NCBI GenBank assembly: GCA_948567375.1
Contig: OX419756.1
Span: 51,288,333-51,352,332, forward strand
Reading direction: 5' to 3'
From: Lunularia cruciata
Taxonomy: Eukaryota; Streptophyta; Marchantiopsida; Lunulariales; Lunulariaceae
DNA length: 64,000 bases
The translations under genes and the position numbers were made by a program. The notes under the pieces were generated by a model that had not been told where the DNA came from, ran no database searches, and saw only the letters and a list, made by a program, of their open reading frames with translations. Positions 3,717 to 57,267 of this stretch are shown here, in pieces (position 1 is the stretch's first letter; each line of letters opens with the position of its first letter).

Positions 3717-5948
3717 GTAAGTCATCCAAGGTCACTTGCACTCTGATCTTGACTACTTTGGATCCAGTCTCTTTATTCTCACTCAAAGTGTAAGTAAGGT
3801 TATCATCTTAGCTAAATCTAGCCTAAGGCAAACATTATCTCCTACTTCAATCATCCTCCTATCTACTCTATCTCCAAGGCAAATTAACAAAGTGTTTCAG
3901 TTTACATCCTTTGCCTTCTTCCTTTGGATTTCATGCACTCACTAACAATTTTAGCTTGTGTAGATAGGCCTCCTCTAACTCTACCTTGGCTCTAGTATTG
4001 AGCATCACGTTTAAGTGGGTACTGACCTCACTTACAAAACCTAAACCTTCCTTCAATGAGAGTGATTCACATTGGGTCACCTCCTCTTCCAAATTAGTAC
4101 AAAGTTGTTATAGTTCATCAGCATACTTCACCTCCATCTTCTCCTTCTCTACTCAATTATTGGCAACTTGAGCTTCAGCCCACTTGACAAGATCATAAAG
4201 GCATTGTTCTTCCAAAGTTTGAATTGCAAGTTCTTTTTGCCAAGCCCAATCCTTCTCCACTATTACTCACCTTAATTCCTCCATAGATTGTTCCTACAAT
4301 CTTACTTGGGTTCTATGATGAACTAAGTCTATCTGAGTGCACTCCAATTCTTCCTTCATCTTCTCAAGTGCATTCTTTTGCTCCACCAGCTCTTCCTTTT
4401 GACTCTCTAGGTAACCACATGTTGCACGCTACCTTGCAAGTTGTTGAAGCTTACTATAGCATCAACCCAAAGTACCTCAGCTTCATGTTTGCTTTGAGCA
4501 AGCATCACCTTCAATTGGATTACTTCTCCTCTCAACACTTTCACCATCTGATGTTTGTTCTTCACCTTTAGATGCTCCTCCTTCATCAATGAAATAGTGT
4601 CCTTGGATCAGCTTCTCTTCTTTGATTGGGTATTGGAACTATCAAGGTCTTCTCTCATCCCATTTTAGTGAAGTATTGGTCACTCACCATGACTTCCACC
4701 ATGTACCTATTCTCCTCTTGGTCTACAACCCATTGCAGGTCCGGATGAAAATGCGGCACTATTTGATGTCACTCCTTGGGTGTGAGTAGGTTCAACTCCA
4801 AATAGTAATGTGCCACAAAAGGTGCAAAGTAGTGGGGTGGTATGTCTATCTTCCACTGCCCCACTATCTACCTTGTCCTAATGTAGAAACACCTTGCACT
4901 ATCTACACTCTCTCTTGCAAACATTTGGTGGAAGAAAATTGCTTGCTACTTCATCCCGTAGGTGGTTTGCTCCAATTTCATCATAGCCATCACTACCCTG
5001 ATAATACTGTGCCTCATTGGGTCTACATAGGTTTCTACTTTATACCCATTCTTTTTGCAAGGTTCATTGAAGGATGCCTTCAATTCCTCCATCTCTTCCG
5101 CAAGATCATACTTTTGATCAAAGATGATGGGTTCCATGGGCTCTCTTGCATCAATTCCAAGAACTAGCCTCCAATTGACTTTAATCCATTAGGTTGGGTT
5201 GCCTTTCTTCCCTACCTCACTTGGACCTTCCTCACAATTACTTGTGGCAATTTTTTCATGAATCCTAGAAAACTTAAAATTCTAGTTCCATGCAAGAAAA
5301 GTGATCTAGAGTTGGCTCAAGACTCTGAATTGGGTTATTACATTTAACTTCCTAATTGTAGGCTTTTGGACTGAGATTGCCAAAGCCAGTCATCCTTCCT
5401 TGAATGGCATTGTATTCCTCTCCTCTTCACTTGGCTTTGCACACAAATACCCCATGACTTGGTTTTTGTTTCTACCACAATTTTGTAGACTATTGAAAGG
5501 TGCAAGACAATCCTTCAACATTACAAAATTCTCTTGACAAAGCTTCAATTTTATACTCCTTTGAATCATAGTCATTCTTTAGTCAAACTTCAATCAAAAA
5601 TCATGTCTAATGCATGCTTTACTCTTGTCACTATCAAATATATCCTCACACAGAGTAACCATTCACATTGATTATACCTTCTTGGTTGGTATAGCTTGAG
5701 ACCAGGTTTTAGTTAACTTCCTTGGATCGGGTTTCTTCATCCCAATTTGAAGTGTCTTTACTTTGAATATTCTATCCTCCCAAGTTTGATCCAAGTCTTC
5801 ATCTCTTCCAGTACAAAGTCAACTTCCTTGGGTTGGATCTCTACTTTGGATTTGAATACACCAATCTCCTTCATCTAACCTCAATTTCTACTTAAATATA
5901 CACTTTCTATTCTAAAAACTATCCCAAAAAAATATGGGTACCACATAC
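3717..5948 (-). pseudogene. Extra 3' ORF of TAT-like retrotransposon, copy B (degenerate)
   Basis: This is the second copy of the minus-strand extra ORF. The conserved block at 5137-4946 reads FNEPCKKNGYKVETYVDPMR. It is followed leftward by Lys/Glu-rich coiled-coil sequence around 4589-4407. DNA similarity to copy C (24870-27105) is high along the whole length, for example GTAAGTCATCCAAGGTCAC(T/A)TGCA at the left edge and AAAAATATGGGTACCAC at the right edge. Here the right edge continues directly into the integrase C terminus (6380-5986), which gives the natural order in the element: integrase, then extra ORF. The left end is cut by the LTR fragment at 3506-3716. Numerous stops make it non-coding now. 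Confidence 0.6.
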
Positions 5949-9081: not shown

Positions 9082-10126
9082 CTACACCGATGCATGGGTC
9101 AAGTTGGTTGTTGGCTCCCATGTCACCTCATACAATGGGTACCCTTTCCAATGTACAAGGTATTCCATATGTGGATGGCGGAAATATACAAGAATGTGTT
9201 CACCTTCATATTCCTCCATGCCATCAATGAGTGTTGGACAAGGTCTAACTTCTTCTATGGAAGGAAAGTGGTGCCATTTGGATGCATATCTACTTAATAA
9301 GGAAACATGGAACACTAAATAGATCTCCATGTATGGCAATACCTTGAAATGATTGGCCATTATGCCGATCTGATGAAGGATTGGAAAAGGCCCAATAAAA
9401 TAAGGTCTAAGTTTATGAGGGCCAACTAACATGAGGTTGGTTGTGGATAGCTAGACTTGATTTCCAACATTAAACTCCATGTGCAAGCAATGTATATATT
9501 GTTTTTGTCAACTTTGTGCAATTTGCAATATGTGCTTAGCATTCTCCACACCTTGTAGGATTCTAGAAACAAAAGTGTTGACGACAATAAGATTGGTACC
9601 CATTGGGTGGATATTCATCAAGCTCAAAGGTGTAAAAGGATGCTCTCCATTCATAAGGAAGAATGGTGTGACCTGTGTGGATGCACTCATTGAATTGTTG
9701 TAGGCAAATTCCACCAATGGAAATAAGGTGTCCCGCCTCTCTTGTTCATATAACATGGAGCCCCAAAGCATGTCTTCAATCATACAATTGGCCCATTTTT
9801 TTGTCCATTGGTTTGTGGATGGTAAGCTGTGCCATGACCAATTTAGTTTTGAAGATGCCAAAGAGTGTTCTCCAAAACAAACTAGTGAATTTAGTGCCTC
9901 TATCAATGATAAGCACTCAACATAGATTTGTGGCATCCAGGATCCATAACTTTCTATCACAAAAGGTGAGGTCTTGGGTATTGGTTACGCCTTTGGATAA
10001 TTGAGCTCCTACAATTTGTGGGTCAATTTTTGTAGTAGTAAGGATCCTTGGCCAAAATTTTAAGTTCACCTTCACCTCTACCAACCAAATTGTTTGCCAT
10101 AGGCAAAAATTTGGAAGGATGTTATA
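9082..10126 (-). pseudogene. Chromovirus integrase with C-terminal chromodomain (broken)
   Basis: Minus-strand frames encode the integrase catalytic tail (VEFAYNNSMSASTQVTPFFL, MNGEHPFTP), the C-terminal domain with GPFPILHQIG and HPVFHVS-like YLVFHVSLLSRY, and a chromodomain (YLVHWKGYPLYEVTWEPTTN). The chromodomain is a histone-tail reader that guides integration in chromoviruses. The upstream frame (10129-9917) matches the RNase H/integrase spacer of the second chromovirus at 31074-30883. Frameshifts separate the pieces, and everything upstream in pol is deleted at about 10126. Confidence 0.85.
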
Positions 10127-12720: not shown

Positions 12721-14813
12721 GTAAAGTAGTTGTTTTTTTATGTTTGATATGAAAATACTTTGTTAAAGCTTCCACAAGTGAGTCCAAGATATGAGTTACA
12801 TGATCATTGACTAACTCTAGAGTACATCTATATTTGGAGATGATGTTTTGGAAGAAAAATTCTACTACTATCTTTGCATCATCTTTTTCAGTTGCCTTTG
12901 CCCCCACCATTTTAGTAGCGTGATCAATGCATACTAAAATGTACCTCTTTTTGGTGAATTGAGTGACTGGTTGAATCGGATCCACAAAATCAATACCCCA
13001 TTTCTCAATTGGAGCCAATGGACAAAATTGGTCTAAGGGACCACTAGGTAGTAGATTAAGGTTTCTTTGTGCACTTGCAAGCATCATAGCTTTTGATATT
13101 GGCTTTTGTATTCTTGTACATAATAAGCCACCAATATCCTACCGCAATAATTTTCTATACTATGTTCTTCAATGCATAATGACCTCCCAATGCTTCCAAA
13201 TGTAGAGATTCTATTACTCTTCCTACTTCATGGGCTTTCAAGCACCTATGAAGCATCTCATATTCACCCATCTTAAACAAAATATTATGCTTGAGCTGAT
13301 ATGGTCTCATTTTCCAAGGAGAAAATTGCTCTGTGCTTTGGATCTAATCCTTCAAGACATTGACATGTATGCAGATAATGATATTCTATTGCTATCTAGT
13401 ACTTTGCATTGCCATCAAATGGTATAGCTCTTCATGAGAGAAATTTTCATCTATCTCTAGGCCTTGTTCTTGGGTTTCTAACCTGGTTAGGAAGTCTACA
13501 TTTGCATGCAAAGCTCCCTTCCTTACCTATATAGTATATGTGAATTCTTGTAGAAACAGAATCCAACATGCAATTCACTCTAATAGGTTAGCTTTCTTCA
13601 TTAACTATTGTAACATATGATCCACATAGAAAAAAAACTCATATCCCAACAAGTAGTGTCAAAACTTCTTGCAAGCATACACCATTTTGAGTGCTTCTTG
13701 TTCCATAGTAGTGTAATTTTTCTCTACAACTAAAAATTGCATATTGGCAGAATCAATAGGATAATCTTTCTTCTTTTCATCCTTCTAGCTAAGGATTACT
13801 CCTTTTTCCATGGATGAAGTATCCACATATATATGAGAAGGGACATCCTAATTTGGAGCCCACATGACTGGTGCTTCCACCAGTTTTTCTTCAATACCTA
13901 GAACACTTCTCCTTGTTTTGACTCCCACAAATAGTCTTTGGATTTCTTAACTTTGTTAAGTATGCAGCTATTAAGAGTGCAGCCAACACCACATAGTTAG
14001 CAAAAAATCACCCATAATCCAACATGACCCAAGAAAGCCCTTAGCTCACAAATATTTTGGGAGATTCCAAGGCTGTTATAACTTTCACCTTCTCAACATC
14101 AACTTTATTCCTTGGCTCGACACCCAATGTCCCAATATTATTCCTTTTGTCATTGCAAAGAAACAATTTTCTAGGTGTAAGGACAATCATTTAAAATGGC
14201 TCCTATCAAACATTTAACAAAGGTAATCCAAATGCACCTCTCCTCATCCAAACACACTAAAGTCATCAATAAAAACTTCCACAAACTTCCAAAGGAAGTC
14301 CCTAAAAATCACACTCATCATTTGCTGAAATGTAGAGGAAGCATTACACAACTTGAAGGGCATCTGATTATATGCATAGGTACTCCATTAGCTAGTGAAA
14401 GTAGTTTTTTCCTTGTCTTCTTCTTGAATGGACACTTGATTATAGCATGAAAATCTGTCAAGAAAACTATAGCAAGGGTGACTTGTTACTTGGTCTAGAA
14501 TTGTATTCATGAATGGAAAAGGATGATGATCCTCCCTTGTGATTGCATTAAGCTTGAAAAAATCTTAGCAAACCTAAATTTTTCCTATCTTCTTCTTTGG
14601 AACAATGAAAATTAGAGATATCTATTCATTGCTCAAGACTAGAAAGATAATTCTGGCTCCTAAGTATTTATCAATCTCATCTTTCACAAGGCCTGAATAC
14701 TTTGGATTCAACCAATATAAGCATTGGCACATTAGAACTAAACCTTCCTACCAAATCAATACAATGTTCCTTAAATTTTTTGAAGATTCTAGGTATTTGA
14801 TCAATAGACCAGG
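12721..14813 (-). pseudogene. TAT-like gypsy RT, RNase H and integrase N-terminal part (broken)
   Basis: Read leftward from 14813, the minus strand carries RT motifs (KKFKEHCIDLVGRF; HPFPFMNTILDQV; FLTDFHAI; a decayed LDDF region as LMTLVCLD), RNase H-like sequence (YTTMEQEALKMVYACKKF, HYLLGYEFFFYVDH), and the integrase core start (WGIDFVDPIQPVTQ, KKRYILVCIDHATKMV, at 13087-12716). Stops and frameshifts are frequent. The RT is cut at 14813 by the young chromovirus and resumes at 20453. The integrase is cut at 12721 by the degenerate chromovirus and resumes at 8772. Confidence 0.8.
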
Positions 14814-14883
14814 TGTAACAATATGGAGTTTAGAGATGAAGTTAGTCGGGCTTACGAAGTAGAGAATAAGACAAAATAGCCTA

Positions 14884-15105
14884 GAATATTCTGGAAGCAT
14901 CTAAGAAGCTTCTTGGGAAGCTTCCCAACTAGTTAACTTGCACCCTAAGCAGGTAGCTTCTAGAAGGAAGCTTCTAGAAGCTTCTAACTAACTTAGCTTG
15001 CACGCCAAGTAGGCGGCTTCTAGAAGGAAGCTTCTTGAGAACCTTCCTAGTTAACTTGGCTTGCACTCCAAGAAAGCGGCTCAAGGAAGCTTCTTGAGAA
15101 GCTTC
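14884..15105 (+). promoter_or_regulatory. Heat-shock-element array in LTR U3
   Basis: Perfect heat-shock elements (alternating GAA and TTC at 5-bp steps) are visible. GAATATTCTGGAA at 14884-14896 has three units and GAAGCTTCTAGAAGCTTC at 14967-14984 has four. Two-unit pairs occur at 14905-14912, 14917-14924, 14958-14965, 15018-15025, 15027-15034, 15039-15046, 15086-15093 and 15098-15105. The array ends about 20 bp before the TATA box. HSF transcription factors bind such arrays, so heat-inducible transcription is the inference. The same array is in the 3' LTR (20098-20110 and 20181-20198 for the two perfect sites). Confidence 0.75.
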
Positions 15106-15124
15106 AAGAGTCTTGTATGCTACC

Positions 15125-15132
15125 TATAAATA
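15125..15132 (+). promoter_or_regulatory. TATA box of LTR promoter
   Basis: TATAAATA lies about 110 bp before the LTR end and just downstream of the heat-shock elements. This is the expected place for the U3/R promoter. Confidence 0.7.
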
Positions 15133-15237
15133 CCAAGGCCAAAGCTCATGCTAGGCATTTGGAGTTTTCCCTCATTCAAGTGTCCCAATGTGAGTTTCCA
15201 TTCTCCTATTTCTCTCCTCGGTTTTGGTCTTTTACAT

Positions 15238-15249
15238 TGGTATTAGAGC
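15238..15249 (+). other. Primer-binding site, initiator Met tRNA
   Basis: TGGTATTAGAGC, one base after the LTR, differs at one position from TGGTATCAGAGC, the complement of the plant initiator-methionine tRNA 3' end. The exact version is present in the second chromovirus at 35279-35290 (minus strand). Confidence 0.85.
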
Positions 15250-15504: not shown

Positions 15505-16404
15505 ATGGCGGCAATACCGGATGTTATCCTTGCAATGCAACAACAAATTGAGCATCTTACTCTATTGTTGGATGAACGAGACCAGCAACGACGAGAACAG
15601 ATAGACAGAGCGCCAGTTTGAGATGCAAAAGATTACATTTGATTTCCTAAACCCAAGGTGTTTGAAGGCAAGAATCTTCCGGACACAGTGGAGAATTTTG
15701 TGTTTGACTGTGAACGTTACTTTGAAGCCACCAATCTTCAAGACAAGTGGAAACAAATTCTCTTGGCTTCTAGCCAATTGGATGGCGTGGCAAAACTTTG
15801 GTGACGATTCCGAGTAGAAAGAGCTGAACGACAAATTGTTACACCGATTTTGACATGGGCAGAATTCAAGGAAGCAATACTTGGTCGATTTCAGACTATA
15901 AATGCCACCCGAGCTGCACAAGATAAATTGGCGGAGTTGAGGCAAATTGGCTCAGTGAGAAGCTACATCACACAATTTCAGAATATCATCATGCAAATTC
16001 CAGATATCCAAGAAGGTGAAGTTTTGGATCAATTTGTGCGAGGATTGAAGTCACAAACCAGATTGGAGGTGACCATGCGAGAGCCACAGAACATAGAAGA
16101 AGCCATGAAATTGGCTGAGCATTTTGATTCCTTAGTTGCGACAACTTGGTCTTGACCTCGACCTACACAAAACCTACCATTACCACGAGTGGAAGAACCG
16201 GTACCAATGGAGATTGATGCTATCCAACAAAGACCACTTGGCACAACAGATAGAGAAAGATTACAAAAAAATGGAGGTTGCTTTTATTGTTGCCAAGTTG
16301 GACATCGCATTGCTGAATGTCCACCTAGGAATGGGCAACTTCGACAAGTTGCCCAAATGGAGTTTGTGGAACAGAATGATCAGGGAAACAAAGAATCCCA
16401 GTAG
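15505..16404 (+). pseudogene. gag (capsid/nucleocapsid) of young chromovirus
   Basis: One frame from ATG 15505 to TAG 16402-16404 encodes about 300 residues of gag. It contains the retrotransposon gag domain (TWAEFKEAILGRFQ, KLAELRQIGSVRSYITQFQN, LDQFVRGLKSQTR) and a CCHC zinc knuckle, CFYCCQVGHRIAEC, near 16280-16320. In-frame TGA codons occur after RAPV, after DYI, in the LW-TGA-RF stretch and after TTWS. Three stand where Arg is expected (CGA to TGA) and one where Trp is expected. The protein would package the element RNA into virus-like particles, but this copy cannot make it full length. Confidence 0.88.
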
Positions 16405-16430
16405 GAGATTTTGAGCCGCCTACTGGGAGC

Positions 16431-16823
16431 TTGATTAGTTCCAATGGGATTGAAGGCTCAAACTATGCAAGTTTGCTTCACTTGCAAGGTACGATATCTA
16501 ATCGGGGTTGTAGGATTTTGGTTGATTCTGGAAGTTCAAAGAATTGCATATCTATGCAAGTAGCAAAGGAATTAGGTATTCCTATCAAGCCAATGATTGG
16601 AAGTAGTTTGATGATGGCGGATGGTAGAAAAGGTTCTGCATTCCGCACCTTGCATCCTATTACCTTCAAGATTGGGACGGAGTATTTGGAGTGTATGAGG
16701 TTTGTAGTGGCACCTCTACACTATGATATCATTTTAGGTCTACCTTGGCTTGAACGTCATAAGGTTCAATTCGATTGGACCCGACGTCAAATTCAAGTAC
16801 AACACCAAGGTAGGAATTTCTGA
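16431..16823 (+). pseudogene. Retrotransposon aspartic protease
   Basis: A 130-residue frame contains RILVDSGSSKNCIS, the D-S/T-G active-site motif of retropepsins, and YDIILGLPWLERH, the conserved ILGxPWL region. It would cleave the Gag-Pol polyprotein. It lies in a different frame from gag, 27 bp downstream of the gag stop. It ends at an in-frame TGA after GRNF, beyond which the same frame continues into a tandem-repeat linker. Confidence 0.88.
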
Positions 16824-16866: not shown

Positions 16867-17046
16867 AGTCCCAAGATGGGAAGTTTGCTGAGAAGGTAGC
16901 CATAGAGCAAATCTGGAAGGGAGATGAGTCCCAAGATGGGAAGTTTGCCAAGAAGGCAACCATGGAGCAAGCTTGGAAGAGAGATGAGTCCCTAGAAGGA
17001 AAGTTTGTTAATGAAGCAGCCATAGAGCAAGCTTTGGAGGAAGATA
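16867..17046 (+). repeat. Three 60-bp tandem repeats in the protease-RT linker
   Basis: Units start at 16867, 16927 and 16987 (AGTCCCAAGATGGG, AGTCCCAAGATGGG, AGTCCCTAGAAGG). They translate, in the protease frame, to three 20-residue repeats beginning SQDGKFAEK, SQDGKFAKK and SLEGKFVNE and rich in charged residues. The repeat preserves frame, so it expanded while the region was coding. Confidence 0.9.
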
Positions 17047-17199
17047 AGTCTGTATTTGCGGTGTGGATCAAGCCGATTGCACAAAAACAATCTGAGGAGG
17101 GCTAGGTGCCGCATCAAGCAACGATTGATTGGATAGTTCCAAAGTGCAGATGTGTTTCCGGATGATCTGCCAAAGGGATTACCCTCTGATTGAGGTATG

Positions 17200-18450
17200 C
17201 TCTTCAAGATTGAGTTATTGCTAGGGAGTACTTCAGTGAGTAGACCAATCTATCGGCTCTCACCAAAGGAGTTGGAGGAGTTGCAAACAACACTTACAGA
17301 GTTGTTGGAGAAGGATTTCATATGACATAGTACCTCTCCGTGGGGAGCACCAGTACTATTTGTTCCAAAGAAGGATGGAGGACTTCGTTTCTATATTGAT
17401 TACCGTGGGCTTAATAAGCAAACCGTGAAGAATGCATATCCCTTGCCTTGGATCAACGACCTGCTTGACCAATTAAGTGGAGCACGCTACTTTTCCAAGC
17501 TGGATCTTTGTAGCGGCTATTGGCAAATTCCTATTGAAGGAGAGGACGTGCAAAAGACTACCTTTCGCACAAGGTATGGACATTTTGAGTGGAGAGTTCT
17601 ACCATTCGGACTCAATAATGCTCCAACAGTCTTCATGGATCAGATGCATCGGGTGTTGGAGGGACTATTGGATCAGTCCGTGGTGGTGTTCTTAGATGAT
17701 ATCTTAATCTATAGTAGGACAGAGGCAGAACACAAGAATCATGTGCGAGAAGTCCTAAGACAACTACGACAATGGAAATTTTACTGCAAGAAGTCAAAGT
17801 GTGCTTTTTGGCAGAAGGAGGTTACCTTCTTGGGTCATAAGATCTCATCAGAGGGGATCAAGATGGAAGAAGAGAAGATCAAGGCCATTACTGATTGGCC
17901 TACCCCGAAGGATGCTACAGAAGTACGAGCATTCAATGGATTGGCCAAATTTTACCGACGGTTCATCCACTATTATGCTCACGTGGCTGCACCATTGACT
18001 GACCTCTTGGGAAAGAACTTGAGCTTCCAGTGGACCACCAAGCATGAAGAAGCATTCCAGAAGTTAAAGCATATGGTGTCTTCAAGACCTATTCTTCAAC
18101 CATATGATCCTCAACTACCTTGTGTGGTTGATTTTGATGCTTCTAACTTTGCAATTGGAGTTGTGTTACAACAGGAATTTCCAGATGGACTACATCCTAT
18201 TGCCTTTGTGTCTTGCTGACTAAATACAACTAAAAGAAATTACTCTCCTTGAGATCAGGAACAACTTGCAATGGTATATGCCACCAAGGTATGGAGGTAT
18301 ATCTCTTGGGGAAACAAATGATCATGCGAATTGATCACAAACCATTGTTGCAGACCTTACACTTGGAGCACATGAAGAGTCGGCATCATCAATGGGAAGA
18401 GCAACTCCAATTGTTTGACATCAAACTTGAGTACAAACCAGGTTGATTCC
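17200..18450 (+). pseudogene. Reverse transcriptase and RNase H of young chromovirus
   Basis: RT spans the long frame 17425-18219, with upstream sequence ([18 protein letters not shown]) in the same frame behind a TGA. Visible motifs are [26 protein letters not shown] and the catalytic [11 protein letters not shown] with both Asp present. RNase H follows: [14 protein letters not shown], then, after a TGA and a frameshift near 18295, LLGKQMIMRIDHKPLLQTL and RHHQWEEQLQLFDIKLEYKPG. It would copy the element RNA to DNA. Stops include TGA at the Arg position before HSTSPWG and TGA after VSC. Confidence 0.9.
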
Positions 18451-18485
18451 ATGTCATCCCCAATGCTCTATAACGACAACCTGAT

Positions 18486-20093
18486 TTGAAGGATCTTCCT
18501 CTCATCACGGCGGCAATTACAACGGTGTCCATTGACCTTAAGATCCATAATGAGTTTCAATCAGCTCTACAACAAGATCCCTTCTTCCAAATGGTACACA
18601 GTCGTCTGACAGCACGTGACAAGGAGTACAACACCTTCTCTTTCAAGGAAGGACTTTTATTCCATGCAGGCCAGATCTATGTTCCAGCCAAAGGTGATCT
18701 TCAACTTTTGCGCCTTCAAGATGCCCATGATTTACCAATAGCTGGTCACATGGGAGTGGACAAGACCTTGGGCACCCTCCAACGCCAATGATGGTGGCCC
18801 ATCATGACACAAGATGTTTGAGACTTTGTTCGATCATGTGAAAGTTGCCAACGGAACAAGGCCAGCAACCAGAAGCCGAGTGGACTCCTTCAACCACTCG
18901 CCATTCCATCCGCTTGTTGGGAGCATGTGAGCTTGGATCTCATCACATCCTTGCCAAAGACAAAACAAGGACACACCGCAATTGTGGTGTTTGTGGATAA
19001 GCTTAGTAAGCAAATCCACTTGGCACCAACCTGTGATACCGTGGATGCTCCAACCTTAGCGCAAATCTACTTCAACAATGTTTTCAAGTATCTGGGGATG
19101 CCACATGTACTCGTCTCCAACCGAGATCCTCGATTTACCAAGAAGTTTTGGCAAGCACTCTTCTAGATACTCGGCACCAAGCTTGCTTTATCCACGGCCT
19201 ATCATCCTCAAACTGATAGACAAACCAAACGCGCCAATCGTACATTGGAGGATATGTTGCGGGCCTTTGTCAATGTCCACCATACCAACTGGGATGAATG
19301 TCTTGCAGCTGTAGAATTTGCCTACAACAATTCCAAACAGGCAAGCACCAGATTTTCTCCCTTCTTTCTCAATTTTGGCCAAGATCCGCTTGTTCCAGAT
19401 TCTCTTCTTGCTCCCCCTCCCTCTCAGGTTCCTCATACTTCTACATTCTTGACCACTATATCCCAATCTCTCCAAAAAGCCAAATCTCACCTCCTTGTTG
19501 CTCAAAATTGCCAAAAACAATATGCGGACCATCATTGTTGTGATCTCACCTTTGAAGTTGGTGATAAAGTCATGCTATCCTCTAGTAACCTCCTTCTCCT
19601 ACTTGATACTCAAGTTTGTAAACTTGCTCCTAATTGGATAGGACCCTTTGATATCACCTACATTATCTCTCATGTTGCTTATCGACTTGCCTTACCTTGT
19701 CACATGCATATCCATCCTGTCTTTCATGTTTCCAAGTTAAAACCCTTTGTTCCTAACCCTTCTTCCTTTTCCTCTCGAGTCCAACCTCCCCCTCTTCCTA
19801 TCCCTATCAATGATCATGAGGAGTACGAAGTTGATCATATCCTTGCGCGTTGCCATATTCAACAAGGCCGTCGCCAACATACGGAGTACAAGGTCCTTTG
19901 GAAAGGGTATCCCCTTCATGATGCCACATGGGAACCTCTTTCTCACCTCCAAAATGCACAGATGGCCATCAAGGACTTTGAAGCTTTACTGGCGACGAGG
20001 ACGTCACCAACTAGCAGCGGGGGAATATGTAACAATATGGAGTTTAGAGATGAAGTTAGTCGGGCTTACGAAGTAGAAAATAAGACAAAATAG
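18486..20093 (+). pseudogene. Integrase with C-terminal chromodomain
   Basis: One frame, with a few stops, encodes the HHCC zinc domain (AGHMGVDKT; CESCQRNKA), the DDE core (SLDLITSLPKTKQGHTAIVV; LVSNRDPRFTKKFWQALF; TLEDML), the C-terminal domain (FEVGDKVMLSSSNL, GPFDITYI, HPVFHVSKLKPFV), and a chromodomain (YEVDHILARC, TEYKVLWKGYPLHDATWEP). The last 283 codons (19245-20093) are open. The chromodomain marks it as a chromovirus. A TGA precedes WWPIM, again at an expected Arg, and a TAG follows WQALF. Confidence 0.92.
20015..20027 (+). other. Polypurine tract
   Basis: AGCGGGGGAATA, immediately before the 3' LTR start TGTAAC at 20028, is the plus-strand priming site. It overlaps the last codons of the integrase frame. 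Confidence 0.75.
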
Positions 20094-20447
20094 CCTAGAA
20101 TATTCTGGAAGCATCTAAGAAGCTTCTTGGGAAGCTTCCAAACTAGTTAACTTGCACCCTAAGCAGGTAGCTTCTAGAAGGAAGCTTCTAGAAGCTTCTA
20201 ACTAGCTTAGCTTGCACGCCAAGTAGGCGGCTTCTAGAAGGAAGCTTCTTGAGAACCTTCCTAGTTAACTTGGCTTGCACTCCAAGAAAGCGGCTCAAGG
20301 AAGCTTCTTGAGAAGCTTCAAGAGTCTTGTATGCTACCTATAAATACCAAGGCCGAAGCTCATGCTAGGCATTCGGAGTTTTCCTTCATTCAAGTGTCCC
20401 AATGTGAGTTTCCATTCTCCTATTTCTCTCGGTTTTGGTCTTTTACA
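20028..20447 (+). repeat. 3' LTR of young chromovirus
   Basis: It is 420 bp and near-identical to 14814-15236. Differences are five transitions, one transversion and loss of CTC in the CTCTCCTCGG block. It is followed by the target duplication CCAGG and then the resumed TAT-like RT frame. Confidence 0.93.
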
Positions 20448-23400
20448 CCAGGCAATACATCCTAGTATTCTTTAAATAAGATACTATAGTCTTCTAATTC
20501 CTTGGGGGTGACTATCTTGGAGATTTTAAGTACTTTGTCTTCTTGCAAGACCACATCTTGACAATCATCGGGATGGATGACTCCTTCCACATGAATGGCT
20601 TGGCTTAGTCCAAGTCAAGTGGAGCTGTAACCCCCTTTCTCCAAATCATTGCTACTAAAAGCCACATTGTATGGGTTTTCCTCTTTGATATCCACCTTGT
20701 AGCATGTCAAATAATTTATTGGGATTTCTTGGTCCAAGTCTTTTGAGGACAAGGAAGACAAATCATCAGATTGATCTTCATTGTCAAACAAAGTAGTTTC
20801 TCCAAGGAGAGGAACCTTTGTCTAATTGTCTATCACCAACTTGTGACCTTTAGATTCAATATCCTTAACACTCAACTTTTGTTGATGCTAAACCACAACA
20901 ACACGTACATTATATAACCAAGGTCTTTTGATCAATAAGGAACAACCAATTTTGGTCACAAGTTTGAGTACAACAAAGTTGAGTTTGAAAGGTACTCCTC
21001 CAATGATGGTCACTATATTGGACAACATTCCCAATTTTTGGCGTCTAGACTGATCTCAAACTTTAGGATTTGTGGTGTAGGTTCAAAAGTATGATACCCC
21101 AAACTGTGGGCAATAACCTCCATCATTACACTAATACTAGAACCTAAGTTAGTGGGTGTAGATGTAATTATGCAACCCGTAATCTTTGCATCTACTTCTA
21201 AAGATCCCAAATCTTCTTGTTCAATTTGATATATGGCAGGTAAATCCTTCTTGAAGATCTTATGCACTCTCTTAAGAGCCAAGCTTAGTTGCTCCTTATA
21301 TAACTTGTTATCCTCCTACAATTTCTTGAATGTCATGTTAGCATGAGTGGATGCTAGATCTGCCACAATATCATACTAGGGTATGCCTCCTAGCTTCACC
21401 TCCTTTTGCTTCTACCTCGGGGTTGAGTTCTCAACCCAATCTAAAGTAGACTTGGGCCTCTTGAGTATGGTAACCAAAGTGGTTTTGTTGTGAACCTAAG
21501 TCACTTTGGGTTTACCAACTTTGGCTCAAATTAGACCTTTGACCTCAGATCAGATGTTAGCTTCAGACACCAGAGGACTCTCCCTTGGAACTTCCTTCAA
21601 GTTGATATCCTGGTCTTGTTAAATAGCTTCCTTCACCTCCTTTTGTAAAGCTTTTGCTTTAGCCTTGGCCAAATCTTCTCCTCCTTAGTAGACAAGATGA
21701 ATTTAGGACAAAATTGCTTTGTCTTCCTCAAGGAGGATGAGGTAATGCTTACCTCCTAGGGATCACATTTCTTTTTTCTTGTATGTGTTTCAACTCTCAA
21801 TACATCAATACCCGGCTATTCTCTCTTCAAGGCTGGATTTAAATTCTTGGGAACTTTTTCTTACAAAGTGATACAATTCATTGTGGCCTCTACTTTTGCT
21901 CGTGGTGGGGGATATTTTGGTGGTGTCTAGACATACCTCACCGGAGGCTTTAGATGCAGGGGCTAGGAACATAGGGCTAGGCACATGACCCTAGCCCTTA
22001 AAATTTCTAAACAAAGGAACATATCTAATCTGCCAATAAGGTTCATGACAATTGGGTGCCCAATGTCCAAGCAACCCATAGTTATAACAAGCTCCAAGTG
22101 CAAAATTCTAGGGTCAATTTTGGTTTAGCATCAGCATCTATCTTGATGGAGCATTATTCATAAACTCCCTTAGTCCATAGCATGGACCTTGGAATGTTGT
22201 GCTCAACTGAGGTTATACTTCTTGAGTTTGATAGACCACTTTTTCCTTTGGATCGTGATATTGGTTGTGATCCCAAGTTGGAACCTAGTCAGTTTGTTGT
22301 ACTAGGTACATAGGTCTATTGGTCAAGCACTATATGTTTGCATGACCCCAATTTACCACACAAAGTACACCATACATTTGATCTTGCAAATGAGGGGGAT
22401 TCATTCTATCCTTTACCCTGACCATCTGAATCTTGAAATCTGCAAACTCTTTTATAAGAGTCTCTAGCTTAATGTCCATCTTAGTAACATGTTTGGCTAG
22501 AGCTTGCAATATTTTTTGACCCAACCTCTGTCAATTCCTCCTCTATTTATCATCATCCTTTGAGGATGATGAGGAACTTGCCAAGCTTGAGGAGTCATCC
22601 AAAGATGGAGATGTATTGCAAGATAATCTTCTTCTTGCCTTTTTTTCCTTTTTTCTCTCAATTCCTTTGGTTACCATCAAAATAAGAACAAGTCATCTCA
22701 TAGTGAGCGACATATTTGAGTACTTTGTGAAGAGAGGTTACATTTTTTGCAAAGATACAAATCTCTAGTGATAGGCCTCCAAGGAACCAAGTGATGGCTT
22801 GGGCATCTGAATAGCCACCCACCCTTGCATGCTTAGGCACTTAGTTCAATAACACCATGAACCATTTTGCATAATCTCTCAACTTCTCATTCTTGCTCTA
22901 ATCCAAATCATTGAATGCTACAAAGACATTTGTATCAGAATCCACTTCCCAAAACCATTCCAAGAAATTATCCCAAAGTTCTACCCAATTGGTTGGTTTA
23001 AATCCATTTTGAGTCACAAGGGTGTACCAACTCCAAGATTTCTTCTGGAGCAAACTTGGAAGAATTCACAATTTATCTTGGGAGTTGTGTTCTTTTTTGG
23101 AAAAGAGAATCAAATTGAACTCCTCAATAAATTCATCTAGATCTTCATCCCATTCCATCCCCTTATACTTTTGGTAGGCTTGCCTTGTAACGAGGTGTGA
23201 TGACATGGCAATTGGTCATAGTATAAGCTGCTGAGGTACTAGGCTTGGTTGCCTAGAGTCACCCTTAGAGGATCATACTTTGGGCTAGGGCCAATCTTCC
23301 CAATGTACCAAATTCAATTGTGGGTCTTCTACAAAGGCATCCTCCTCTTCAACCCAAGGTTGTGGAAGGGTGTCAACATCATAAAATTGCTCTTCAATAT

Positions 23401-24660: not shown

Positions 24661-27108
24661 TATTATTAACTTGGATCCAATCCAAGCACTACCTCGACTT
24701 CAACTTCTTCATCTGAATCAACTACAAGTGTCTTTTGTACTTTGGGTTCCTCATCTACTTCTACTACTACTTCTCATTAGTCTATACTCAGACTTAAGTC
24801 ATAGATGCCCTAGCTATCTTCTCTTTTTCTATTCAAATCATCTCAAATGACTTGGATAAGTCATCCAAGGTCACATGCACTCCAATCTCAGCTACTATGG
24901 ATTAGATCACTCTATTCTCACTCAAAGTGCAAGTGAGGTTATTTATATTTATCTTAACTAAATCTAGCCTAAGGCAAACATTATCTCATACTCCAATCAT
25001 CTTTCTATCTACTCTATCTCTAAGGTGAATTAACAAAGTGTTAAGTCTACATCCTTCACCTTCTTCCTTTGGGTTTCTTGCACAAAAAATTTTAGCTTGT
25101 GTAGGTAGTCCTCCTCTAACTTTTCCTTGGCTCCAATATTGAGCATCAATTTTAAGTGGGTAGCAACCTCACTTACCAAACCTAAACCCTCCTTCAATGC
25201 AAGTGACTAATGTAGGGTCACCTCCTCTTCCAACTTAGTACAAAGTTGTTGTAGTTCATTAGCATACTTCACCTCCATCTTCTCCTTCTCCACTTCATTG
25301 TTGGGAACCTGAGCTTTTCCCACTTGACAAGATCATAAAGATGTTGGTCTTTCTGAGTTTGGCTTGCAAGTTCTCTCTGCCAAACCTGATACTTCTCCAC
25401 CGCTACTCACCTTAATTCTTCCATAGATTGTTCCTACAATCAGATTTGGGTTCTATGATGAACTAAGTTGGTTTGGGTGCCCTCCAATTCTTCTTGCATC
25501 TTCTCAAGCACCTTCTTCTACTTTGCAAGCTTCCTTTTGACACTCTAGGTAACCGCCACATTGCTCAAAGCTACCTTGCAAGTCATTGAAGCTCTATTGT
25601 CTTACTATAGCATCAACCCAAAGTACCTCTGCTTCATGTCTACTCTAAGCAAGCATTGCTTTCAACAGGATTACTTCTCCACTCAACACTTTCACCATCT
25701 AAATTTTTTTTCTTCACCTCTGCATGCTCCTCCTTCATTGGTGAAATAGTGTCCTTGCATTGGCTTCTCTTCTTGGATCAGAGTAATGGAACTATCAAGG
25801 TCTTCTCTTGTCCCATTTCAGCAAAGTATTGGTCACTCATCTTGACTTCCACATATACCTATTCTCCTATTGGTCTACAACCCATTGTAGGTCCAAATGA
25901 AAATGTGATATCATCTGATGTTGCTCCTTGATGGTGAGTAGGTTCAACCCTAGATGATGATGTGCCACAAAAGGTATAGAGTAGTGCAATGGCATGTTCA
26001 TCTTCCACTGCCCTACTATCTACCTCATCCTAATGTAGAAACACCTTGCCCAATTTACACTCTCTCTTGCAAACATTAGGTGGAAGAAAACCGCCTATTG
26101 CTTGGTCACATAAGTGGTTTGTTTTGGCTTCATCATAGCCATCACTGCCCTGACAATACTTTGCCTCATTGGGTCTACATAGGTTTCTACTTTATACCCA
26201 TTCTTCTTGCAAGGTTTAATAAAGGATGCCTTTAGTTCCTCCATCTCTTCCTCTGGATCACACTTCTTTTCAAAGTTGATCCTCATGGGCTCTCTTGCAT
26301 CACTTTTGAGAACTAGCCTCCAATCAGCTTCATTCCATCGGTTTGGGTTTTCTCTCTTCACTACCTTGCTTGGACCTTCCTCAAAATTACTTGTGGCAAT
26401 TTCTGTCATGGATCTTGGAAAACTTAGATTCTAGTTCCATCCCAAATAGTGATTCAAAGTCAGCTCAAGACTTCAAATTGTGCTACCATCTGTATCTTGC
26501 TACTCGTAGGATTTCAGACCGAGATGGCCAAAACCTATCATCCTCCCTTGAATGACATCATGTTCCTCTCCTCTTCACTGGGCTTTGCACATAGAAACCC
26601 TATGACTCAGCTTGTGATTCTAACACAATTCTCTAGCCTATTCAAAGGCGTAGGATAATCCTTCAACATTGCAAAATTCTCTTGACAAAGCCTTGATTTT
26701 ATACTCCTCTAAATTGTAGTCATTCTTTAGCCAAACCTCAGTCAAAAATCTTGTAGAATGCATGCTTTACTCCTGTCACTTTTCAAAACTATATTCACAC
26801 AAAGTAACCATTTATTTTGAGTGTACCTTCTTGGTTGGTATGGCCTGAGTCAAGGTTGTAGTTAAAGCTTCCTCAAATTGGGTTTCTTCATCTTGATGCA
26901 AAGTGTCTTTACTTTGGGTCTTCCATCTTCCCAAGTCCAATCCGAGTCTTCACCTCTTTTGATACAGAATCAACTTCCTTGGATTGGATCAGATCTCCTA
27001 CTTTGGATTTGATAGCACAAATCCACTTCATCTAACTTCTTTTTTTTACTTAAAAATACACTTTCTAGCCTAAAAACTATCAAAAAAAAACAAATTGGGT
27101 ACCATTAC
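24661..27108 (-). pseudogene. Extra 3' ORF of TAT-like retrotransposon, copy C (best preserved)
   Basis: The frame 26409-26095 on the minus strand (104 aa) contains NPNRWNEADWRLVLKSD, then EEMEELKASFIKPCKKNGYK and VETYVDPMRQSIVRAVMAMM. Downstream (leftward) come coiled-coil-like Glu/Lys-rich stretches broken by stops, and then the LTR. It is collinear with copies A and B. The right edge is the shared motif GGTACC at 27100, joined here to a plus-strand integrase fragment. Function is unknown. The paralogous conservation of the NGYKV-DP-R block suggests the protein was once under selection. Confidence 0.6.
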
Positions 27109-29489: not shown

Positions 29490-30687
29490 TTAAGACGTAA
29501 CGTCCTTGTTGTGCAACTGTTGCTCAAATGCTTGCACCAACACCGGTGCATGTGTCAAATTGGCAGCGGGCTCCCAGGTTGCTTCAAAGAGGAGGTAACC
29601 TTTCCAATATACTAGATAGTCCACCCACGGATGGTGAGTACCACTCATGTATTTTTGGAGAATATGCTCCATTCCATATTCCTCCGTGTCATCAATGAGT
29701 GTCAGACAAGGTCAAATGTCTTGTGTGGAATGACACTGGCCTGATTGAGGAGCATATCTCCATAGGAGGGAAACATGGAACACTGGATGGATCTTCATGT
29801 GTGGTGGTAGCTTGAGGTGATAGGCTAATACGCCGACTTGACAAAGAATAGAAAAAGGCCCAATAAAATGAGGTTTGAGCTTACAAGGTCCCACTAATGT
29901 GAAGTTGGTTGTCGACCGCCACACTTGATCCCCAACATTGAACTCCATGTGCCTACGGTGTGCATTAGCATATTGCTTCTATCAATTTGTGCAATTTGTA
30001 ATCTGTGCTTGGTGCTCTCCACACCTTGTTGGATTTTAGAAACAAATGTGTTGACTATGTTGACCTTGGTAGCTACTGGATAGATCTTCATCAAGCTAGA
30101 AGGTGTGAAGGGATGCTCACCATACATGAGGAAGACCGGAGTGACATGGATGGATGCATTCACCAAATTGTTGTAAGAAAATTCCACCAATGGTAAGGTG
30201 TCCCACTTCTCTTGCTCTTCTAAGATGAAGCCGTGTAACATGTCTTCAATAGTGCAATTAGCCCACTTTGTTTGTCCATCTGTTTGTGGGTGGTAAGTTG
30301 AGGACATGGCCAACTTGGTTTTGAAGAACCCAAAGAGTGTTTGCCAAAACAAATTGGTGAATTGAGTGCCTCTATCGGTGATGAGTACTCAAGACAAGCC
30401 ATGGTGAAGAAGACTGCATCTAAGTATAATTGACCTAGTTGTGGAGCGGTCACATCCTTGGTGGTAGGGCATACATGAATCATTTTGCTAAGCCGGTCCA
30501 CAAAGACCACGATAGAGTCAAACCCTGAGGTAGTCTTGGGTAATTCATGGACGAGATCCATACTCACTTGTTCCCAATGTTGGGTAGGAAAGGGGAGAGG
30601 TTGAAGGAGCCCCACATGAGCTTGATTTGGAGCTTTGTTCTGTTGACAATGTAGGCAGCTTTGCACGTCCATCACATCGTTGCTCAT
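29490..30687 (-). pseudogene. Integrase and chromodomain of second chromovirus
   Basis: The minus strand encodes the zinc region (SCLHCQQNKAPNQAHVGLLQ), the DDE core start (VSMDLVHELPKTTSGFDSIV; VFVDRLSKMIHVCPTTKDVT), the core end (YHPQTDGQTKWANCTIEDML; VEFSYNNLVNASIHVTPVFL), the C-terminal domain (VGDQVWRSTTNFTLVGPCKL; GPFSILCQVG; HPVFHVSLLWRY) and a chromodomain (DYLVYWKGYLLFEATWEPA). Two frameshifts break the frame, near 30380 and 29950. The family integrates cDNA and is targeted by the chromodomain. Confidence 0.9.
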
Positions 30688-30879
30688 CTTGGGCTAATAG
30701 GAATGGCGCTGGACTGCATCCAAGGTCTTGTCCACTCCGACATGACCTACAATGGCCAAATCATGACATTCCACTATAATGGTGGTGCATAATTCTAGGA
30801 CATTTGGGATCCATAATCTGTCATCACGAAAGGTGAGTCCTTGGGTGTTGGTGACGCCTTTGGATGATTGCGCTTCTAC

Positions 30880-31744: not shown

Positions 31745-33212
31745 GCCCATCAAATATGGCGATAAGATAGATCCTTCTGCATCTTGAGGTAGACTAGAGA
31801 TTTGTGGTTTATCTCTACTAAAAATACCTTCTTGCCCAAATAGTGCTTCCAATGCTTGGTTGTGAGGACGATAGCCAGCTCCTCTTATTTTGTGGTGTGG
31901 TAGTTGCATTCTGCCGGTAACAAATTTTGAGAGAAATATGCAATTGGATGCCATCTGTCATGCCACTCTTGTTGTAGGACTGCTCTTATTGCTACGCTTG
32001 ATGCATCTGTAGCCAACTTGATTGGATGTTTTGGGTCATACCACTTCAAGATTGGAGCATGTAGTAAGGTGGCTTTCAATTCTTGAAATGCCAACTCTTG
32101 TGCGGTTCCCCATGTCCACTTCTCCCCCTTGCCAAGTAGTGTTGTTAAAGGTTGTGCAACCTTCGAGAAGTCCTTGACAAATTGACAATAGAATCCCGTC
32201 AATCCCAAGAAGCTCTTGAGTTGAGTCTAATCTTCTAGGGAACTCTATTTTTTAATAAACTTTATTTTTTATCTGTCAATACTTGAATACCCTCTACACT
32301 TACTCTATGCCCCAAGTAGTCTACTTCAGACTTGCCAAACTTGCACTTTGAGATTTTGGCGTACAATCAATTTTGTCTTAGAATCTTGAGGACTTCTCGT
32401 AGATGCTTTTTGTGTTCCCTCATTGTGTTATTGTATACTAGGATGTCATCCAGGAAGACAATAACAGAATTATCCAAATATGGAAAAAATATATCATTCA
32501 TTAGACTCATGAAAGTGGCAAGTGCGTTGGTGAGACCAAAAGGCATCATGAGATACTCAAAGTGGCCATACCTGGTTTGAAAGGTAGTTTTGTACACATA
32601 TTCCTTTGCAATTTGGATTTGATTGTACCCGCTCCGCAAATCTAGTTTGGTGAAGTGTCTTGCTCCATTGAGTTGATCAAATAAGTCATCCATACAAGGT
32701 AAGGGGTATTTTTTCTTCACTATTTGTTGATTGAGATGTTGATAGTCAATGCACATGCACATTGTACCGCCCTTCTTCACAAACAAGACCAGAGCCCCAT
32801 ATGGTGATACGTTGGGTTGGATGAACCCTTTTTGTAGCATATCCTCAATTTGATTCTTACACTCCTCCAACTCATGAGGTGATAGGCGATATGGAGCCTT
32901 ACAAGGAGGCGTCTTCCCCGAAAGTGTCTCAATTTTATGACCTACTCTCCTTTTTGGTGGTAATCCTAAAGGTAGATCACTGAGAAAGACATCTTGAAAC
33001 TCATTTACCACATCCCTCAATTTCTTAGGAATTTTTCCATCAAGTTGTGCACTCTGGACTTCTCTTATTAGACCCATGAAACATCTATCGGTCTTATAGG
33101 TAGTTGTTGTCCCTATGACATACAGAGGCAATTCTTGCTTGTGTGATTTTTCTTTGACCCCAATGATCAACCATTGGTAAGTTCTTACTACTTTCTTCCT
33201 CCAATCTACCAT
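31745..33212 (-). pseudogene. Reverse transcriptase and RNase H N-terminal part
   Basis: RT lies in one 281-codon minus-strand frame (33212-32367) with [52 protein letters not shown] and the catalytic [12 protein letters not shown] with both Asp. RNase H follows at 32208-31745 (FSKVAQPLTTLLGKG; KLATDASSVAIRAVLQQEW; IAYFSQNLLPAECNY). A gap with a frameshift or stop separates them at 32230-32360. The RT is the best-preserved pol gene of this element. Confidence 0.92.
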
Positions 33213-33239
33213 AGGGTTGTAATGGCATCCTTAAGATTG

Positions 33240-35197: not shown

Positions 35198-35275
35198 TCT
35201 TCCAAGAGGGGTGATCCACTCTCTTGGATGACAACATCTTCCAAGAGGGGTGATCCACTCTCTTGGATGACAACA
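35198..35275 (-). repeat. 39-bp tandem duplication in the leader
   Basis: Units 35198-35236 and 35237-35275 are nearly identical (TCTTCCAAGAGGGGTGATCC start). They lie next to the primer site. The degenerate relative at about 12085-12120 has a single copy, so duplication happened in this lineage. Confidence 0.85.
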
Positions 35276-55700: not shown

Positions 55701-57267
55701 TGTGACCTTTGTAGGTGTGGATACAACCCTTTCGTCTAATGTCCCAAATCTTCAAGTTGGTATCAAGAGACCCTGAGGCAAAGAACTCCCCAAATGGATG
55801 AAAGCTCACTGATGTACAATTAGATCTGTGGCCTGTGAGTGTGCGCACAACTGCAACCAAGTGATAATACAAATAGTCAACAAAAGCCGAGAACACCGTA
55901 TCTTGGTTTCACATTTGAAAGCGGAAATCTTCTGTGAGCATGGAAGGGCTAACGACCACATGCCGTTCTCTGAAAGTACTTGACTCAATACGCATGAACT
56001 ATATGTTTGAAGCGAATATGAGGGCCAAAAAGTCCAATTTGTTAAGAAGGGATTACTTTTAGCTTCTTCAAGATCCCATAGCTTTATGGTGCCACTCGCA
56101 GCACCAGCCACGACAAGAGCCTCTGCAGCGTCAAACGTTACAGATTCGACGGCAGTTGTATGCCCGGACAGGGTCTGCGAGGCAAAACACCACAATTTAG
56201 ACCTGCTGAGCCAAAATGCCGGTGGTATGTATGTACTGACGTGACCATATTTCAGTACTGGAATCTGATCACCTGAAGTACTTGCATGTTTGGGCTTGCA
56301 AAGCATACGCAGCGCACCTATTACCTGAAGTTCACTCGGGTTCCGACTGAGTTGTTGAGTTCCGACTGCTCCGAGCGTAGGAACATATACACTAGAGTGA
56401 TAGCCAGGGGGCGAAGCAGATTCCCGACATACGATATTTTCAAGTGAAATTGTATCTCATCTAAGAGAAAAGTTGACACTCAATTGCTCTCTATCACTGA
56501 CAGCGAGTAACTTCTTTGATTTCACAGATATCTATACGCGAAGTTCCCCACCCATTTGGCCTGTAGACAAGCACTTAGGTTGGGAAAACGTAATAGGAGT
56601 TGCATTCCCAATGGCACTCAACTTTGGCTACGGAACCCGCAAGACAAGGTCATCTCAAATCCGAAGGTGGAGGACCATTCGGGGGTGTAGGGTTTCGTAC
56701 CCTCCAGTCTAGACTGCTACATAAAGCCTATGTATTGTGCAAGCAGTTTGCCAGATAGCCAAGCGAGAAAAAGAAACGACAAGGAATTCGCCAATTACCA
56801 GAATTGCGTCCGCCCTACCAATGGCCCACATGTTCACTTTCTGATCTTCCCCTCCAGTGACCAGCACCCTCGAGGTCTTCTTTCCAATTGTGAGACAATT
56901 GACATTGGAAGAGTGTGCCACAAACTCCTCTAGCAGCAAACATGTCAAGGGAAGCAGGAGATGGCCAGCCAACAGTATCACATTCATATTCAGCTAAGAT
57001 TTAGGGAAGGATTTCTAGTAGATTTTTCGCATCGTAAGAACAAAGAGCTTTTTAACGGATTTGCAGACAGATGAAAAGCTCAAGTACATCGAATAACCAG
57101 TTTTAGCACTATCTGATGATGTAACAGAACAGAACCTCACAACCTAGCTAGAGACTCTGGCGATGCGAGGAAAATGCAGGAAGAGAATGCAGACAGTAGC
57201 ATGCTGAAAGAACCAGAAAGTAATGTAACGATGGAAGGATACGTAGTTTGTAGGCACGATGCGCCAT
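49797..57267 (-). CDS. KTN80: Katanin p80 WD40-repeat subunit (KTN80)
   Basis: Exons (minus strand): 57267-57243, 56929-56799, 56174-56057, 55850-55624, 55419-55317, 55007-54937, 54748-54674, 54343-54200, 54019-53752, 53440-52847, 52312-52253, 51889-51750, 51479-51354, 51089-51015, 50808-50752, an uncertain one near 50651-50593, 50498-50379, 50098-50030 and 49857-49797 (TGA). This gives about 840 residues, normal for plant KTN80. Exon 1 is 25 bp and gives MAHRAYKLQ across the junction with [13 protein letters not shown]40 repeats fill residues 9-270 ([32 protein letters not shown]). A Ser/Arg-rich linker with a His-rich repeat follows. The C-terminal con80 region includes [18 protein letters not shown] and GVDLQAEQR. 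It pairs with the p60 ATPase to sever microtubules at branch and crossover sites. Frame is continuous except at exon 16, where no GT donor keeps phase. Confidence 0.93.
53846..53953 (-). repeat. Three 36-bp coding repeats in the KTN80 linker
   Basis: The codons for NGHH recur at 53942-53953, 53906-53917 and 53870-53881, exactly 36 bp apart. They encode three 12-residue His/Ser/Asn-rich units ([36 protein letters not shown]) in exon 9, just after the WD40 domain. The frame is kept. Confidence 0.92.

Follow-up and report, generated by a model that had tools for sequence, protein, structure and literature searches.

The locus analysed here raises the question of whether a dense cluster of heat-shock elements (HSEs) in the long terminal repeats (LTRs) of a Lunularia cruciata retrotransposon constitutes a promoter that responds to heat, or a repeat array that has been copied along with the element for other reasons. 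The window, i.e., the whole 64,000-nucleotide stretch of DNA that was analysed, contains one copy of this element, and a non-random HSE array is present just upstream of a putative TATA box in both of its LTRs (Table 1). The reading favoured below, at a probability of roughly 0.56, is that the U3 region would act as an HSF-driven, heat-inducible promoter of the ONSEN type.

Table 1. Coordinates of the element and of its HSE array in the window
Feature	Position	Strand	Remarks
5' LTR, 423 bp, TGTAAC...TTTACA	14814..15236	+	414/423 identical to 3' LTR
3' LTR, 420 bp	20028..20447	+	same ten HSE sites at 20098-20319
Target-site duplication CCAGG, 5 bp	14809-14813 and 20448-20452		flanks both LTRs
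HSE array in U3 (perfect three-unit HSE, perfect four-unit HSE and eight dyads)	14884..15105	+	
Perfect three-unit HSE GAATATTCTGGAA	14884..14896	+	
Perfect four-unit HSE GAAGCTTCTAGAAGCTTC	14967..14984	+	palindromic
Eight GAA/TTC dyads	starts 14905, 14917, 14958, 15018, 15027, 15039, 15086, 15098		exactly eight besides the perfect HSEs
Tandem subrepeats, ~60 bp, 3.3 copies	14905..15105	+	TRF period 60, 80% matches
Putative TATA box TATAAATA	15125..15132	+	19 bases past the last HSE unit (ends 15105)
Putative primer-binding site TTGGTATTAGAGC	15237..15249	+	directly 3' of 5' LTR
gag fragment, Retrotrans_gag	15805..16155	+	Pfam E 5.1e-12
Aspartic protease fragment, gag-asp_proteas	16380..16823	+	Pfam E 2.5e-10
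Reverse transcriptase and start of RNase H	17326..18219	+	RVT_1 E 3.9e-38
Integrase pieces, SH3_Tf2-1, C-terminal chromodomain	18474..20093	+	SH3_Tf2-1 4.8e-18, Chromo 1.2e-12
Putative polypurine tract AGCGGGGGAATA	20016..20027	+	adjoins 3' LTR

The Pfam domains run from gag through protease, reverse transcriptase and RNase H to an integrase that ends in a chromodomain, which is the order of a Ty3/gypsy chromovirus and bears out the classification made by an earlier, sequence-only reading of this DNA. The structural features of the superfamily are likewise present, namely TG...CA LTRs, a 5-bp target-site duplication, and a putative primer-binding site (PBS) and polypurine tract (PPT) in place. 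Many other copies of the family carry at the primer-binding position the letters TTGGTATCAGAGC, which we take to be those for initiator tRNA-Met, and letters resembling a PBS or a PPT are found next to many further LTR copies. The zinc-binding and core pieces of the integrase are Pfam matches below the curated cut-off, in what is a broken copy. Further, the stretch EYEV...VLWKGY of the chromodomain aligns to QEFEV...VRWKGY of CDY and ELYEV...VRWKGY of CDYL, and this alignment reveals both the first (Y24) and the third (Y48) aromatic residues, which define the group I chromodomains (CHD_I) as opposed to those of group II, where the first is absent and usually also the third (PMC3350952). The earlier description of the element as young holds for its LTRs, which differ from each other at 6 of 420 aligned bases and by a single 3-bp gap, but does not extend to its coding frames, which are interrupted at several places; on account of these breaks the window's copy looks non-autonomous. 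Inside a 93-codon open frame between the protease and the reverse transcriptase, a 60-bp unit is repeated in tandem about three times (16867-17050).

The surroundings of the element in the window contain further Ty3/gypsy-like remains on the minus strand (9508-9984, 29894-30693 and 32367-33230), one of them with an RVT_1 match (9.2e-24) and the others recognised by eye, and direct repeats at 5000-5596 and 26152-26744, which may be the LTRs of an older element surrounding the chromovirus. A minus-strand open frame with a WD40 repeat lies at 55806-56456, possibly an exon of a katanin p80-like gene, and a 39-bp unit is present in two perfect tandem copies at 35198-35275.

Inspection of the array itself places all the sites where the sequence-only reading had put them, i.e., a three-unit HSE, a four-unit HSE and at least eight further GAA/TTC pairs within about 220 bp just upstream of the TATA-like motif; the ten sites span 222 bp in each LTR, and the claim that both LTRs carry them is likewise confirmed. 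Together with an ATC at 14899-14901, the three-unit site additionally forms a four-unit HSE with one mismatch. Neighbouring dyads do not keep the 5-bp register relative to each other, their facing units lying 7 or 9 bp apart, and the canonical HSEs therefore number two, to which four three-unit sites with one mismatch, and one more such site that overlaps the perfect three-unit HSE, may be added. The dyads are distributed over tandem subrepeats, the presence of which had been correctly noted, but with a period of 63 bp; the period is instead about 60 bp, the units measuring 62, 60 and 59 bp, and 63 letters is only the length of the TRF consensus unit. In three of the four subrepeat units GAAGCTTC is followed by four bases and then by a second dyad, out of register, while in the remaining unit two bases separate the dyads, which consequently join as a four-unit HSE. 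The arrangement of at least three adjacent nGAAn units within an LTR that characterises ONSEN-type elements is thus found in both LTRs, in the form of the four-unit and the three-unit site.

This architecture also underlies the main rival explanation, namely that the array is a passenger without function in vivo, consisting of palindromic subrepeats of about 60 bp with GAAGCTTC and TTCTAGAA that were spread by tandem duplication and LTR copying; such an array might bind HSF in vitro and yet have no role in the expression of the element. We regard this as a serious possibility, albeit a somewhat doubtful one. It draws support from the observation that all sites besides the three-unit site and GAACCTTC are built from these two dyads, which means that the number of sites is not the number of independent origins. 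The three-unit site does not conform to this account, as it sits outside the subrepeats and differs in sequence from the repeat dyads.

Chance clustering in an LTR rich in GAA and TTC is a simpler conceivable explanation, and these triplets are indeed more frequent than expected, with a total of 32 in the LTR against a mean of 19.1 in shuffled sequences. However, the 5' LTR contains 13 unit-to-unit steps as compared with a mean of 0.42 (sd 0.66) in dinucleotide shuffles, none of 5,000 of which reach 13, and the comparison with sequences of the same composition, which had been proposed as a check of the array, accordingly comes out in its favour. The 3' LTR behaves in the same way (shuffle mean of 0.44 steps, with 0/5,000 reaching the observed number), and the highest count in any 249-bp stretch of the window outside both arrays is 4 steps. 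To see whether palindromes of any kind would do as well, each of the 32 triplet classes was counted at every spacing from 3 to 20; of these 576 combinations GAA/TTC at 5 bp has the highest count, 13, and the runner-up has 8. Additionally, the assembly containing the window (566 Mb in 74 contigs) has 5,213 exact copies of the four-unit site and none of its reversed control. On the strength of the shuffles, the rank among the combinations and the genome count, chance clustering is rejected as extremely improbable.

A further alternative is that the palindromic array serves a different factor, such as an activator binding GAAGCTTC, or a structural purpose, such as hairpins of the U3 RNA or DNA. 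Consistent with this, five of the eight dyads are one and the same palindrome, GAAGCTTC, rather than GAAnnTTC with free linkers, and the neighbouring dyads are, as noted, outside the 5-bp register. Against it, the linkers differ from site to site (GC, TA, TG, CC) while GAA/TTC at 5 bp stays constant, and we consider this explanation quite unlikely. In support of the heat-promoter reading, an oligonucleotide that has served as an HSE bait for HSF1/HSF2 includes the four-unit core without a single change (PMC8492855). A literature text search with two 13-letter parts of this core gave 23 papers, and among the best 20 of these 12 concern heat shock, HSPs or HSF and the others do not.

The genome-wide counts indicate that the array extends well beyond the window. 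Perfect GAA-first four-unit HSEs, the kind to which this count is confined, number 7,083 as against 117 for the reversed pattern. The LTR family is very large: exact matches to the 22 bases that open the LTR number 223, and when up to 3 mismatches are tolerated the figure rises to 15,349 (control, 2). The first 20 exact matches to the four-unit site on one contig (C1), a set picked by the site, all lie inside LTRs of the family that are 79-96% identical to the window LTR; step counts for such site-picked copies cover 1,001-bp regions and are not taken as LTR counts. Among 80 LTRs sampled without regard to HSEs, three or more units form a perfect chain in 73 and four or more do so in 46, the exact four-unit sequence is present in 38, and the steps range from 0 to 13. 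This sample was defined by an exact match to the 22-base start and comprises 80 of the first 83 of the 223 places, both window LTRs and one other place being left out, and it thus leans towards copies close to the window's. The seven LTRs lacking a three-unit chain include three that align poorly to the window LTR and four that do not. A further 30 loci (L025-L054), which had been picked by full-length LTR similarity, were excluded from the HSE counts. The array is therefore common to the family in the copies sampled, and the comparison of HSE number among copies recommended by the sequence-only reading yields numbers that are both high and variable. Heat-independent amplification could equally be the source of the many sites.

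Two observations concern the arrangement of the copies. At one place (C1, about 23.07 Mb; L094), the sequence before an LTR copy resembles the internal 60-bp repeat of the element, from which it seems that the family inserts into its own copies. At another, two loci on the same strand, 10.8 kb apart (C1, 49,067,349 and 49,078,146; L108 and L109), hold in the one case an LTR followed by a PBS and in the other an LTR preceded by a purine tract, and these possibly represent an LTR-interior-LTR-interior-LTR array produced by unequal recombination.

If the sites were maintained for HSF binding, their GAA/TTC cores might be expected to diverge less than their surroundings, and in two sets of copies compared with the window LTR 1.4% and 1.8% of the core cells differ, as against 5.8% and 8.05% at other array positions. 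Copies with more than 60 mismatches were dropped from these sets (5/40 and 2/40, and likewise 5/40 in the first run). Permutation tests of this depletion gave 2/20,000 and 0/20,000, and a third set, picked by the four-unit site and with that site excluded, gave 1/20,000. The linkers are informative with regard to the passenger explanation: for the dyads (8.5 and 9.4%), and for the three-unit site (24 and 29%, over four positions only), linkers vary more than cores (1.0-2.5%), which speaks against it, while at the four-unit site they hardly vary (2.0 and 2.9%).

Purifying selection on the HSE cores, which the permutations at first strongly suggested, was nevertheless downgraded because the same depletion is seen between the two LTRs of one element, and on account of tests matched for base and CpG content. 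Nineteen LTR pairs were available, inferred from spacing, strand and flanks and not each proven by a target-site duplication; with one misaligned pair (L160/L161, 41% different) left out, the remaining 18 pairs differ at 13/1,121 core cells (1.2%) and at 95/2,590 other array positions (3.7%). A second pair with a misaligned LTR end (L089/L090, 16%) was also left out of the CpG-matched and McDonald-Kreitman-like tests, which hence cover 17 pairs (from among L097-L159, and the window pair). Within these, CpG positions differ in 41/202 cells as compared with 2-5% in the other background classes; CpG decay is thus strong, as methylated elements would be expected to show. In the window LTR, all 69 HSE core positions lie outside CpGs. 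Upon removal of all positions that are CpG in any copy, the within-pair contrast shrinks to 1.1% versus 2.1-2.3% (p 0.02-0.04), and with a looser CpG filter it stands at 1.05% versus 2.4% (p 0.004-0.007). A lower mutability of the core contexts may hence explain much or all of the core depletion. Among copies, the contrast between core and background hardly exceeds, if at all, the one arising after insertion, as the passenger explanation would have it, and a McDonald-Kreitman-like comparison of within-pair and shared changes over the 17 pairs was never significant (p 0.27 to 1.0). Counter to that explanation, the ratio of shared to private variants among copies is lower in the cores, at 5:31, than the 110:204 of the background (Fisher p 0.009), though weakly so once CpG-related positions are excluded (p 0.05-0.24 over all bases).

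The host complement of HSFs and chaperone genes provides another line of comparison. The genome is that of a green plant, with 37 chlorophyll a/b-binding matches, and contains at least two HSF genes, both with a conserved DNA-binding domain and the letters SFVRQLNTY. One of these (L055) presumably resembles class A1 and the other (L056), which was matched to a solved HSF1 structure (E 2e-17), presumably resembles class B. Taken together with the group I chromodomain, the two HSF matches suggest a non-seed plant, perhaps a liverwort. Almost no perfect HSEs are present in the examined regions upstream of host HSP70 and HSP20 matches, a result that favours the passenger explanation. Upstream of the 10 HSP70 matches (1,000 bp each) there are no perfect HSEs of at least three units, and one four-unit site with one mismatch; this is the fairer of the two controls, with 9 of the 10 regions preceding a match that starts at profile position 1 or 2, in genes of which not all may be heat-responsive. 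Upstream of the 28 HSP20 matches (1,500 bp each), perfect HSEs of at least three units are nearly absent, with one three-unit site, in a control that is poor in that 23 of the 28 start only at profile position 10 or beyond, so that the 1,500 bp may fall short of the promoter. When up to one mismatch is allowed, the HSP20 matches have 57 three-unit sites upstream versus 34 downstream, and 5 four-unit sites upstream versus none downstream. The HSP70 result counts against the heat-promoter reading more than the HSP20 result does, because nine of its ten matches start at the very beginning of the profile.

Under the heat-promoter reading, which we still prefer, heat stress would lead a trimeric HSF, probably a class-A1-like one, to bind the four- and three-unit sites, with the neighbouring dyads adding cooperative contacts. 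Transcription would then start in the LTR, and the RNA would be reverse-transcribed and re-inserted, with a broken copy such as the window's needing proteins from intact relatives. The array would have grown by tandem duplication of the unit of about 60 bp, and the two instead of four bases between the dyads of one unit make the four-unit site continuous, whichever of the two spacings is the older. This mechanism is proposed by analogy with ONSEN, in which HSFA2 binds an LTR that contains a 4P site (PMC5059998). More generally, predicted 3P and 4P sites of Brassicaceae COPIA elements go with heat induction of up to a hundred- and a thousand-fold (PMC5059998).

If this reading is true, a chromodomain-bearing lineage of high copy number evolved the ONSEN-type promoter strategy on its own. 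Plant heat-responsive LTR elements with proven HSEs are best known from low-copy Ty1/copia families. Two questions thereby become accessible within one organism, namely whether individual copies with more HSEs are also the more strongly induced by heat, for which the 80 sampled LTRs offer a range of 0-13 steps, and whether HSEs of a retrotransposon, in their thousands, draw on the few HSFs at the expense of host genes. A more far-reaching scenario, which we consider speculative and on balance unlikely, is that most perfect four-unit HSEs of a host in which two HSF genes were found come from a single chromovirus family. Bursts of transposition would then follow heat, the LTR sites would draw HSF away from chaperone genes once chromatin opens, and insertions would place heat enhancers next to host genes, such that the heat response would be wired largely by a retrotransposon. 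The premise that nearly all four-unit HSEs (5,213 identical and 7,083 GAA-first) belong to one family is an extrapolation from the 20 of 20 sites looked at.

LTR elements bearing HSEs are already a known kind, and an HSE-bearing, heat-mobilised Ty3/gypsy element has been reported from a fungus (PMC12810828). What is new is the ten-site array, its presence in a chromovirus lineage in a plant, and its scale, with thousands of perfect HSEs in one family as far as sampled; literature searches among open-licence papers found no plant chromovirus with an HSE array. The closest structural parallels are ONSEN/COPIA78, COPIA37, TERESTRA and ROMANIAT5, which like the window element have HSEs or HREs of the 3P/4P type in the LTR, and in ONSEN the 4P site came from the duplication of a proto-HRE, comparable to the tandem subrepeats of the present array (PMC5059998, PMC3907296). 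These Brassicaceae COPIA families are Ty1/copia elements of low copy number for which heat induction and HSFA2 binding have been demonstrated (PMC5059998, PMC3907296), whereas the window family is a Ty3/gypsy chromovirus with thousands of LTRs and one 4P site, one 3P site and eight dyads. The sequence-only reading had spoken of a convergent capture of the heat-stress response. An origin independent of ONSEN does follow from the different superfamily, Ty3/gypsy as against Ty1/copia; the idea nonetheless has precedents in TCN3 (PMC12810828), the heat-active bamboo elements (PMC8656106) and the Cryptomeria element (PMC9780303).

Among these precedents, TCN3 and TCN12 of Cryptococcus resemble the window element as LTR retrotransposons whose LTRs carry putative HSEs, but are fungal and possess two and one such sites, respectively, and no array; TCN3, a Ty3/gypsy element, moved only at 37 C (PMC12810828), and a term count of the main text of that paper did not return the word "chromodomain". 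MAGGY of Magnaporthe shares the chromodomain with the window element (PMC3350952) and its activation by heat shock has been reported (PMC3978060, citing Ikeda 2001), but it too is fungal, and the terms "HSE" and "heat shock element" are absent from a term count of PMC3978060. Within plants, PHRE1 and PHRE2 of moso bamboo are heat-active Ty3/gypsy elements, in the paper on which (PMC8656106) the same two terms are absent by term count, and a heat-induced Ty3/gypsy element of Cryptomeria japonica is likewise a plant element active under heat (via the review PMC9780303). With regard to lineage, the Galahad- and Tcn1-type chromoviruses of non-seed plants have the classical group I chromodomain, as in the window element (PMC3350952, PMC2864245). 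SM2-Galahad additionally shares the tRNA-Met PBS and the 5-bp target-site duplication, while for SM-Tcn1 no PBS was found, in contrast to the putative one of the window element; HSEs are unmentioned for these chromoviruses in the parts of the two papers considered here (PMC3350952, PMC2864245). Finally, the Helitrons of Caenorhabditis offer a parallel for a mobile family that carries many of the HSEs of a genome, in this case, however, a DNA transposon of an animal (PMC6927752).
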